Origin: Synechocystis sp. PCC 7509
GTDB taxonomy: Bacteria; Cyanobacteriota; Cyanobacteriia; Cyanobacteriales; Chroococcidiopsidaceae
DNA: 64,000 nt
Reading direction: 5' to 3'
Assembly (NCBI RefSeq): GCF_000332075.2
Contig: NZ_ALVU02000001.1
Coordinates: 3,546,324-3,610,323 of the forward strand
Part shown: one piece after another, positions 21,777-23,944 of the stretch
How the letters are laid out: each line of letters starts with the position of its first letter
Numbering within the stretch: the stretch's first letter is position 1
Translations under genes and position numbers: made by a program
The notes under the pieces: generated by a model
What the model saw: the letters and a program-made list of their open reading frames with translations, nothing else
Database searches by the model: none
Told to the model about the DNA's origin: nothing

Positions 21777-22211
21777 TCAAGTTTTCTCCCAATTCCGATG
21801 TAACAAATTGTTAGTTAGTAGGTAGCAACAATCGTACAAATCTTGCTCAAAGTGGCGATCGGTTGTCAATGCCTCATCAATACCGCGCTGGCGCATTAAA
21901 ACAAAACTAACCGCATCACACAACGAATAAGTCTTGTCTTGACGATCCACTAAAAGCTGCATTGCTTGTCGATGAAGTTGCTCATCTACCCAAACTGTTT
22001 CGATATCTGGACTATCCAGCAAGTTTGTTACAAAGATCAATACAGCAGGACGAGGAAAACGACGTACTAACGCTAGAACAATTAACTCAGCTAGAACATA
22101 GCTATGAGTCAGTAGATTATTGCTTGCACCATTGAGTAGCTGCACAACTTCCTGATGTTGTGGTTCATCTTGATGCAGATAGCAGAGTAAGCCGGACGTA
22201 TCTAAAAGCAC
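21777..22211 (-). CDS. PIN-domain ribonuclease toxin (VapC-like), separated from its antitoxin
   Basis: 144 residues. The acidic PIN residues are Asp4 in LLDTSGLLC, Glu in YVLAELIVL, Asp in SLCDAVSFVL and Asp in ALTTDRHFEQ, so the nuclease looks intact. The start is GTG, with a stop in frame 12 bases before it. Its natural partner is the antitoxin gene whose remains lie at 22602-22652 and 23565-23792: a 375-bp element inserted between the two, and an IS1-family element has truncated the antitoxin. Whether the toxin is still transcribed is unknown. Confidence 0.85.
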   Translation of the reverse strand: MLLDTSGLLCYLHQDEPQHQEVVQLLNGASNNLLTHSYVLAELIVLALVRRFPRPAVLIFVTNLLDSPDIETVWVDEQLHRQAMQLLVDRQDKTYSLCDAVSFVLMRQRGIDEALTTDRHFEQDLYDCCYLLTNNLLHRNWEKT

Positions 22212-22291
22212 GAAGTAATTTTACCGGAAAAATGGGTCTAAAGCCCCGTCCTACAAGGACGGCTTTATATTATATTTAGCCCTCCAAAGTC

Positions 22292-22300
22292 TGGTATAAT
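22292..22300 (+). promoter_or_regulatory. Extended -10 promoter inside the IS605-like element
   Basis: TGGTATAAT is a perfect extended -10 (TGn-TATAAT). A transcript would start near 22307 and run through the right-end hairpins, the direction expected for a right-end guide (omega) RNA. The -35 is weak. Confidence 0.4.
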
Positions 22301-22306
22301 TAAAAC

Positions 22307-22599
22307 AGCAAGTAGGAATAAACATCTATACGTTGAACCATCCTAGTGCGGTGAGACTCCGGCAACGGACATATCCAGCTTGATCTGGAACAGTTAAAGG
22401 GCAAACAAAGACGGGTTGGGGAGTATACCATTTTGGCATTAGTGATGAACTCGGAAAGCGGAAATAATTAAAAAGTAAGCACAATTGCAATACCTGTCGT
22501 ACTGGTAGTTGGTTGAAAGTGTCTAGGGGGACTTTTGATTGTTCCTTTTAAGAGACGACTCTTAAAGAATCCTCGTACCTTCAGGTCGAGGAGTATCAA
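22307..22599 (+). ncRNA. Possible stand-alone omega-like RNA from an IS605-like element
   Basis: The non-coding stretch between the extended -10 and the right end contains several stems and ends in the hairpin CCTCG-ACCT/AGGT-CGAGG plus TCAA, the form of TnpB-associated RNA scaffolds at right ends of cyanobacterial IS605/IS607 elements. A guide would begin at 22600. No tnpB lies nearby. This is an inference from layout; no covariance search was possible. Confidence 0.3.
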
Positions 22600-22601
22600 T
22601 C

Positions 22602-22652
22602 TTAATAATCGTTTGCATAGGCTCTTGCCAGGTCATCATCAATACTTGTATT
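22602..22652 (-). pseudogene. Severed C-terminal end of the antitoxin gene
   Basis: Read on the minus strand, joined to the part at 23565-23792 with one copy of the 8-bp duplication, this gives 16 further codons (NTSIDDDLARAYANDY) and a TAA stop at 22602-22604. It is the original antitoxin end cut off by the IS1-family insertion. Confidence 0.85.
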
Positions 22653-22725
22653 GTCTATTCGGTAGTGCGTCAATTCAATGTGGGATGATATAGTGACAGG
22701 GTGGTTTTAAACTCGAAGCATCTCT

Positions 22726-23103
22726 ATGGATTGTCCTCTGTGTGGTCACATTAAAGCCCATAAACATGGCAAGATGCCGAACGGACATCAACGTTACCTG
22801 TGTCCCGCTTGCCATCAAACGTTCTCGGAATCCTTCGACAGTTTGTACTATCGTCGACATATTAGTCCTGAACAAATTCGCCAAGTGTTGCAAGCACATA
22901 GTGAGGGCAGTAGTTTACGAGGGATTAGTAGAACAACTGGGCTTGCCTACAACACAGTTGTGAGTATTGTTCGCGCTGCCAGTCAAAAAGCCCAATTGGT
23001 TCACAATGCCGAAGTCCAAGCTGTACAAACAGAGGAGGTAAGTGCCGATGAGATGTGGTCATTTGTCTCAAAAAACAGAAACAGTGTTGCGCTCAAGAAC
23101 TAG
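22726..23103 (+). CDS. IS1-family transposase, InsA-like frame
   Basis: 125 residues. It starts with a zinc-ribbon (CPLCGHIKAHKHGKM, CPACHQTF) followed by a helix-turn-helix (SEGSSLRGISRTTGLAYNTVV), the DNA-binding part of IS1 transposase, and ends shortly after the first catalytic aspartate in VSADEMWSFVSKN. The slippery heptamer A-AAA-AAC (23070-23076) lies in this reading frame (codons TCA AAA AAC) so that -1 shifting fuses it to the downstream frame. Alone, the product would be a repressor-like InsA. Confidence 0.9.
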   Translation: MDCPLCGHIKAHKHGKMPNGHQRYLCPACHQTFSESFDSLYYRRHISPEQIRQVLQAHSEGSSLRGISRTTGLAYNTVVSIVRAASQKAQLVHNAEVQAVQTEEVSADEMWSFVSKNRNSVALKN

Positions 23104-23555
23104 AAGTCGGGGATTGTTGGATCGGTCTGAGTCTTGCCGATTCAAGTGGCTTAATTCTGGCGGCGCGAGTTGGCAAACACACTGATGAACTGATTGGTCA
23201 GTTAGTCCTCAACACCGAGGGAAAAACAAATTGCAAGCAATTTAACAGTGATGCTTGGGGCGGGTATGAGCGAGTTCTACCTCCTGAAATTCACCACTAC
23301 ATTGGCAAAGACAAAACGCAGCGATTAGAACGTACTAATGGTACTGTGCGACAACAAACCGGAAGATGGCATCGACGACAGAACAAGTTTGGTAAGGTGT
23401 GGGAACAGACAAAAGTGACAACTCGATTAGTGGTGAGTTACTTCAACTGGATTTGGCAGCATAGCCGATTCAAAACAACTGCTGCACAACGAGCCGGATT
23501 AGCAACGAGAGCGTGGAGTTGGCATGATATTGCTACCTATCCCACATTAATTTGA
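23055..23555 (+). CDS. IS1-family transposase, InsB-like frame (expressed by -1 frameshift)
   Basis: 166 residues open from 23055. The biologically relevant product begins at the A6C site at 23070 as a fusion. It holds the catalytic core: the second acidic residue in NSDAWGGYE and the glutamate region RLERTNGTVRQQTGRWHRRQNKF, plus the family signature VGDCWIGLSLADSSGLILAARVG. The frame is -1 relative to the upstream one, as in IS1 of E. coli. It ends inside the right inverted repeat. The element looks competent. Confidence 0.9.
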   Translation: MVICLKKQKQCCAQELEVGDCWIGLSLADSSGLILAARVGKHTDELIGQLVLNTEGKTNCKQFNSDAWGGYERVLPPEIHHYIGKDKTQRLERTNGTVRQQTGRWHRRQNKFGKVWEQTKVTTRLVVSYFNWIWQHSRFKTTAAQRAGLATRAWSWHDIATYPTLI

Positions 23556-23564
23556 TGCATCACC

Positions 23565-23792
23565 GTCTATTCCTGTCGCGTAGCCAAGACTAATCGCCCC
23601 AGCATTGTTTCTAAACCTCTGCCGAGCTTTCTCCTGTTGCTCCTCTGAAGCGGAAATTTTATTGACAACACTACTCTGTTTGCTTAATACCGCAACCATC
23701 CATTCTGTGATTGGCAGTCCCATAGCATTCGCTTTTTGCTGTAAGTCTGCATACACTTCATCGCTAAGTTCTAGAGTTAGGTGTTGGCTCAT
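23565..23792 (-). pseudogene. VapB-like antitoxin, C-terminus removed by IS1-family insertion
   Basis: The antitoxin starts MSQHLTLELSDEVYADLQQKA (a CopG/RHH-like or helical DNA-binding start), then ITEWMVAVLSKQ and a charged tail EEQQEKARQRFRNNAG. At the target duplication the frame runs into the IS end (GDASN, stop at 23547), replacing the native last 16 residues. C-terminal tails of such antitoxins usually bind the toxin, so neutralisation is probably lost. An ATG 10 codons upstream (23822) is an alternative start. Confidence 0.8.
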
Positions 23793-23944
23793 AAGTAAGT
23801 TATTAAGAACTTCAACGGGCATAGGAGTAATTATAGCTTTGGTTTTGTAAGGGAGTTGTTAAGGAATAATTGTTGTAATCTGATTTGTGCGATCGCACTT
23901 ACTAGCCGCCTCAAAATACTCCTGGAGACTTCGCACTTTTATTT

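Follow-up and report, generated by a model that had tools for sequence, protein, structure and literature searches.

A mobile 375-bp element with IS200/IS605-type ends and a predicted stand-alone omega RNA in cyanobacteria

TnpB RNAs are usually cut from the tnpB mRNA or overlap with it. Altae-Tran in 2021 and Meers in 2023 are said to have reported lone IscB omega RNAs, as well as TnpB omega RNAs borne by PATEs in Geobacillus; like the element considered below, these are guide-RNA loci lying apart from the nuclease gene.

As described in the accessible text of PMC7290912, PATEs possess both ends of IS200/IS605 elements without tnpA and tnpB, and one PATE-like sequence retained the last 58 nt of tnpB together with the right end, where an omega RNA would lie; for PATEs that text mentions neither a promoter nor an RNA structure nor an RNA family recurring in several genomes. 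In Spizellomyces punctatus the “ghost” elements of the Spu-1 Fanzor consist, according to the available part of PMC10432273, of transposon ends and an omega RNA with a conserved interior of ~550 nt and no nuclease gene, and ghost omega RNAs functioned in human cells with SpuFz1 given in trans.

Here we describe a 375-bp element found in a window of 64,000 nucleotides (the whole stretch of DNA analysed) from the chromosome of Synechocystis sp. PCC 7509. Like PATEs it has both IS200/IS605 ends and neither tnpA nor tnpB, but, unlike PATEs as they are presented in PMC7290912, its interior is a conserved predicted RNA with its own −10 box. With the Fanzor ghosts it shares transposon ends, a predicted omega RNA and the lack of a nuclease gene, whereas the ghosts, as far as they are described, are eukaryotic, have a Fanzor partner and end in inverted repeats, and the window element is bacterial, ends in IS200/IS605 hairpins, likely has a TnpB partner and contains a covarying 5′ domain. 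TnpB omega RNA (reRNA) resembles it in that the 3′ domain has its homologues at tnpB 3′ ends, the right flank supplies the predicted guide and the left flank the TAM. It differs from the window RNA, which has its own −10 box, no tnpB in cis and an additional 5′ domain of ~150 nt, the part with the least similarity to known TnpB RNAs. Our literature search, the coverage of which was incomplete and left absence unproven, found neither a stand-alone TnpB RNA family in cyanobacteria nor a description of such a 5′ domain. Protein-less IS605 derivatives and gene-less omega RNAs have precedents; the cyanobacterial family and its 5′ domain appear new within the literature searched. The explanation we prefer, with a probability of roughly 0.7, is that the element is a mobile stand-alone omega RNA, predicted to be used in trans by an unusual Fanzor-like TnpB.

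The element, its ends and its insertion site

The element occupies positions 22225–22599 of the window (plus strand). In another genome of the same genus (G002, locus L168, flank 85% identical) the same toxin-antitoxin locus is free of it and reads AATCTTAC directly followed by TCTTAATAATCGTTTG, while in the window 375 bp split TTAC from TCTTAATAATCG; region 22225–22599 is, therefore, an exact insertion 3′ of TTAC without target duplication. A second copy in the genome (G000:C1:2654399-2654773) has a single mismatch in 375 bp, different flanks and identical ends, and comparison of the two copies sets the left boundary between TTTTAC and CGGAAAAATGGG and the right one immediately after GAGTATCAA. 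The preliminary description had proposed a palindrome-ended element of just this extent, without tnpB or tnpA and with a CCTCG/CGAGG hairpin and TCAA at its right end, and had regarded copies with other ends as an argument against it. The empty site bears out the extent to the base, the other genomic copy has the same ends, and the hairpin, TCAA and the absence of both genes were found as proposed. A related element in G131, compared with the empty site of G194 (GATCAC followed by GGCATTCAAACTG, 30 identical bases), has the left motif TCAC, and insertion 3′ of a short fixed motif without duplication, as is characteristic for IS200/IS605, was thus seen in both pairs of genomes.

For IS608 the accessible part of PMC5934647 gives the signals TTAC (C_L), AAAG (G_L), GAAT (G_R) and TCAA (C_R), as well as a preference of its TnpA for C directly after TTAC. 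All four signals were found with our element, beside subterminal hairpins, and its first base is C, as preferred by IS608 TnpA. The left cleavage site TTAC (22221–22224, plus strand as all signals here) stays in the flank, is present also in the empty site of G002 and is the predicted TAM of the guide. According to the IS608 code the left guide sequence AAAG (22240–22243) lies at the foot of the left hairpin, formed by an imperfect palindrome at 22239–22267 (arms 22239–22245/22261–22267 and 22246–22252/22256–22262), and the right guide sequence GAAT (22567–22570) at the foot of the right hairpin TCCTCG/CGAGGA (22570–22592, arms 22570–22575/22587–22592), which corresponds to the covarying helix 5 of the RNA model R2 described below. 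The right cleavage site TCAA (22596–22599) forms the final bases of the element. Neither the list of open reading frames nor the TnpB and TnpA matches of the genome placed a tnpA or tnpB frame inside 22225–22599. Since the Y1 TnpA is not encoded by the element, it can be at most a non-autonomous IS200/IS605 derivative. PATEs are ends without either gene that move in trans; in the window element both genes are missing and recent movement is seen from the second copy and the empty site.

If the RNA is read through the right end, its guide would start at 22600, in what the preliminary description called an antitoxin remnant, and this start agrees with both the element end and the empty site of G002, where the first 16 nt of the predicted guide (22600–22615, plus strand) are identical. 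From 22600 onward the predicted guide overlaps the last part of an antitoxin-like frame (its 3′ end, 22600–22660, minus strand), whose antitoxin role is putative and which is parted from its start by an IS1-like element. Guide together with TAM equals the empty donor site in the comparison with G002 and in that of G131 with G194. Besides its own junction, the guide has three sites with two mismatches in its own genome, against 14 for the reversed control pattern; the lack of a good second target is what one would expect if the site is occupied.

The interrupted locus contains a PIN-domain toxin-like gene (21777–22211, minus strand, PF01850) and is broken twice, with the mini-element lying between the last codons of the antitoxin-like frame and the start of the toxin, and an IS1-like element within the antitoxin-like frame, the pieces of which are at 22600–22660 and 23547–23822 (minus strand). 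The IS1-like element (22661–23564) codes for an InsA zinc ribbon and DDE_Tnp_IS1 in overlapping frames, has imperfect inverted ends and is flanked on both sides by GTCTATTC, apparently an 8-bp duplication.

The conserved RNA, its promoter signal and its distribution

An extended −10 box, TGGTATAAT, is present at 22292–22300 (plus strand), as had been claimed earlier, and is kept among relatives. A TATAAT-like hexamer (at least 5 of 6 positions) stands just before the conserved RNA start in 35 of the 39 elements counted, the window included, compared to 3 of 39 in a stretch farther upstream and 12% in shuffled sequences. The count started from 74 rows, of which 30 were too divergent to be placed by the start motif and 5 were left out as duplicates or for insufficient length; the 39 that remain therefore represent better conserved elements. 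A consensus scan requiring a −35 hexamer did not list TGGTATAAT and found promoter-like sites no more often than in shuffles. The inner part of the left palindrome (22246–22262), followed by T-rich DNA, was listed as terminator-like, and it might shield the RNA of the element from transcription entering from the left.

Folding of the window RNA as a single sequence gave no signal (no more stable than shuffles, z −1.16), so the structure was judged by covariation between genomes. From 26 extracted RNAs (L056 was omitted before alignment) alignment A1 was made of 21 rows, without L041, L053, L057 and L065, and A2 of 20 rows, with L052 omitted too. Two domains emerged. The predicted 5′ domain, described by covariation model R1, extends from 22308 to 22459 (plus strand) and was not found in the tnpB elements examined. 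Its helices are formed by 22322–22326/22444–22448, 22327–22331/22423–22427, 22339–22344/22413–22418, 22349–22351/22359–22361 and 22374–22378/22385–22389, and 22 of the 24 pairs are standard in the window. Changes on both sides were registered for 15 of these 24 pairs, in 66 cells versus 21.7 in shuffles, none of 500 shuffles scoring as high, and 90.1% of cells are paired versus 33.7–42.6% with the partner slid. Two features of R1 count against the preferred explanation: one of its five helices is paired in only 61.5%, and further pair types are not above shuffles (30 versus 28.6, with 135 of 500 shuffles as high). The predicted 3′ domain (model R2, 22471–22599, plus strand) includes the right end and represents a covarying scaffold common to the 3′ ends of tnpB elements of the type of loci L026 and L027. 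Here both partners changed in 19 of 31 pairs, a number reached by none of 500 shuffles, and 88.8% of cells are paired, versus 33.6–50.6% when slid. Both structures were derived from the same sequences, which inflates the percentage paired and affects the both-side changes less.

A hammerhead-like reading of UGAUG...GAAA, noticed by eye, was dropped because the conserved outer helix pairs through this motif. Search in Rfam 15 gave no family at gathering scores in the window, and matches at relaxed thresholds were far below these scores.

When 291 genomes of the order were searched, pieces of the interior, ~67–82% identical, turned up in other families, along with numerous hits that covered just the left or the right end. 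With strict filters and up to seven candidates scored per genome, so that copy numbers are lower bounds, the R1 family was detected in 29 of the 388 genomes sampled from the class. R2 lies downstream of R1 in 28 of 30 fetched loci (L074 is cut by the contig end) and is absent in L093 and L094. A strict DNA pattern searched in 84,980 species genomes gave 16 stretches, all from Cyanobacteria: Planktothrix, Richelia, Calothrix, Desmonostoc, Tolypothrix, Plectonema, Nodularia, Trichormus, Sphaerospermopsis, Dolichospermum, Spirirestis and one Oscillatoriales bin. G131 carries three identical or near-identical copies at different places, which means that movement was recent. In the plasmid collection the only match was to the left end, on a Nostoc plasmid, and the phage collection gave no match to the element. 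Separately, at least 32 to at least 52 R2 matches each (E ≤0.001, with up to 88 candidates scored) were noted in G008, G419, G159, G133 and G237; in G008 many of them have equal scores, suggesting a recent burst.

The L026/L027 group of tnpB genes and its protein

The 4.9-Mb genome gave 16 TnpB matches and two Y1 TnpA matches. Both TnpA genes lie in other element groups, which counts against the preferred explanation. R2 scored 61.5 bits at the 3′ end of L026 and 59.9 at that of L027, versus at most 27.9 at the other tnpB loci of the genome searched. The window scaffold thus has its homologue in the 3′ end of tnpB elements and stops at the right end, as an omega RNA should. It had been claimed earlier that the 3′ region looks like the right ends of TnpB-coding elements, and that absence of a related tnpB from the genome, along with absence of RNA from the element, would speak against a guide RNA; the R2 matches uphold the first statement, and L026 and L027 are the related genes. 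By plain alignment the likeness of the window scaffold to L026 and L027 is weak (z 2.6 and 2.5), which is again contrary to the preferred explanation, and the link to them rests on R2 and on relatives; one of these, L036, has a scaffold close to that of L026 (z 13.6) and was among the 20 rows used to build R2. R1 had no match in the tnpB loci of the genome that were given to the search.

The two domains and the gene were then counted together over 63 places, obtained from 69 R2 loci by removing six repeats (L127, L131, L134, L145, L146 and L160). These places come from a search of 38 genomes with R2 and comprise the top-scoring match in each of 30 genomes together with further places picked from its results, so they are not a random sample. 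R1 is present at 46 (weak in L141 and cut by the stretch end in L116), a tnpB frame of the L026/L027 type runs into R2 at 11, and no place has both. The six exceptions are L151, with a tnpB piece of 24 residues only, L156, with another tnpB, and L108, L115, L138 and L143, with neither. Outside this genome, every tnpB gene next to an examined R2 place belongs to the L026/L027 type, L156 excepted. Among 54 loci found via the element or R1 (some of them duplicates, with ~1.5 kb on each side) none has tnpB inside the element; L057/L081, which are one place, have an unrelated tnpB ~0.7 kb past the right end, and L042 a tnpB piece of 40 residues just past it.

The exceptions deserve description. In L156 (G183:C40:27200-29600) a different TnpB frame bearing a zinc finger precedes a 3′ RNA domain like that of L027, which looks like an exchange of nuclease and scaffold. 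L108, L115, L138 and L143 kept the 3′ domain and the right end and have no recognisable 5′ domain and no tnpB in the stretch.

A match to the L026-type TnpB (E ≤1e-60, partial copies counted) was found in 22 of 29 genomes with R1 and in 45 of 359 others (388 genomes, kinship ignored), giving an odds ratio of 22 (p 4e-13). A control TnpB of the L013 type, matched at the same threshold, occurred in 21 of the 29 and in 100 of the 359 genomes (odds ratio 6.8, p 2e-6). When genomes were split by presence or absence of this control, the L026 odds ratio was 16 and 13, respectively, kinship again ignored, while the control odds ratio fell to 3.0 (p 0.10) and 2.5 (p 0.36) within genomes with and without the L026 type. 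With kinship ignored, the RNA and the L026/L027 group co-occur beyond what the control TnpB explains. Seven of the 29 R1 genomes are without an L026-type TnpB at E 1e-60, and this counts against the preferred explanation.

The left end of the window element also starts the tnpB-coding elements L005/L026, L003/L023, L004/L024 and L011/L022, and the protein-less elements L006, L007, L008, L010 and, in part, L009. The L026 element (1377 bp, G000:C1:1076602-1077978) almost matches it at the left end and shares its TTAC. In plain alignments the 3′ scaffold of the elements L006–L008 matched those of tnpB loci L022–L024 (z 19.0, 12.7 and 13.3, computed for L006) and the L009 scaffold those of L012/L013 (z 12.5 and 13.7), so that stand-alone RNA elements apparently accompany at least two more of the genome's tnpB groups. 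The L010 scaffold is weakly like L021 (z 3.1), and that of L030 was linked by plain alignment to none of the 11 tnpB loci compared. L006, L007 and L008 (G000:C1:2414243, 2190940 and 25788) are three near-identical protein-less elements of 337 bp with their own TATAAT box and a 5′ part different from that of the window element; L009 and L010 are further single protein-less elements.

The proteins of L026 and L027 match OrfB_IS605; for Cas12f1-like_TNB, L026 is above the cut-off and L027 about at it (just below, and above in the genome search). Inspection by eye of an alignment of ten relatives showed D194, E326, E329 and D376 to be invariant and E328 nearly so, with no glutamate in the canonical RuvC-II position. 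It also showed other residues instead of the zinc-finger cysteines, with AS for the first cysteine motif in all ten sequences, whereas the search pattern for pro-Fanzor TnpB includes CxxC zinc-finger motifs. In E-alt proteins, reported for Fanzors and a subset of TnpBs, RuvC-I and RuvC-III keep their Asp and the RuvC-II glutamate is moved to six residues before the zinc finger (these points according to the accessible part of PMC10711439). The glutamates of L026/L027, as judged from the alignment, recall the E-alt arrangement, with the cysteine landmark for the six-residue distance absent. The predicted model of L026 (10 sequences, mean pLDDT 79.5, pTM 0.56, low confidence at 290–302, 330–344 and 348–362) is most like the structures of Cas12f, TnpB and Fanzor2. 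As the canonical RuvC-II glutamate and the cysteines are missing and the model is of low confidence there, the predicted cleavage activity cannot be taken for granted.

Possible role of the RNA

On the preferred explanation, a promoter just inside the left end would make an RNA of ~300 nt, the 3′ domain of which would serve as the TnpB scaffold, and its last bases, read from the right flank, as the guide. This RNA would be taken up by an L026/L027-type TnpB encoded at another locus, which would cut the empty site composed of TTAC and the guide sequence, for example in a sister chromosome that has lost the element by excision or in DNA that never received it. Repair from the filled copy would then restore or spread the element, and a Y1 TnpA acting in trans would move it. 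The 5′ domain may be an addition that the RNA requires if it is produced alone and not cut from tnpB mRNA; most likely its job would be stability or loading in trans.

Instead of this, the element might be, in line with the decayed relic that the preliminary description named as the alternative to an RNA serving a TnpB from elsewhere, a passive relic of the PATE or MITE kind, a deletion derivative of a tnpB element whose ends are merely a transposase substrate and whose leftover omega-RNA sequence has no RNA function. The PATE-like sequence with its 58 nt of tnpB (PMC7290912, as far as described) shows that such remnants are known, and the four loci with a 3′ domain and no recognisable 5′ domain would fit them. 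Compensatory pairs in two domains across families, a −10 box kept in place and a common 5′ domain absent from the examined tnpB elements are, however, not expected of a relic, and we consider this origin improbable; it is the compensatory changes and the conserved −10 box that make us favour a trans-acting RNA.

Similarly unlikely, in our opinion, is a functional RNA that does not guide, namely a decoy or regulator occupying TnpB (or acting on TnpA) and, for example, limiting cutting by tnpB elements or protecting the host. Such a role would agree with the restriction of the 5′ domain to elements other than the tnpB elements examined and with a guide having no close target in its own genome. 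Yet TTAC and the start of the guide agree to the base with the empty site, as they must if the guide serves retention, and the right end and the 3′ domain belong to a tnpB group. That palindromes, a TATAAT box and an omega-like end came together by chance, without common origin or function, could be suspected from single-sequence folding and from the promoter scan, neither of which exceeded shuffles, but this has practically no probability in view of the second copy, the empty site and the family matches in 29 of 388 genomes, the last two of which already refute it.

A tentative extension, to which we would give less than even odds, is that these are RNA-only transposons: a lineage of elements across Cyanobacteria that make nothing but an omega RNA acting in trans, equipped with its own 5′ domain and selected for recruiting from other loci a Fanzor-like TnpB whose glutamate has moved, and possibly also TnpA. 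If so, a parasite of two enzymes would gain guide-directed retention or drive while coding for no protein, and the 5′ domain would be a new part of OMEGA RNA replacing what tnpB mRNA contributes in cis. The stand-alone omega RNA proposed here raises the questions of whether TnpB acts in trans for non-autonomous elements and what the 5′ domain contributes, and its naturally extended scaffold could serve TnpB tools. If it is confirmed that structurally conserved TnpB RNAs on mobile elements are transcribed on their own, this would show that guide RNAs can spread independently of the nuclease, and the family would supply TnpB with many guides per genome.
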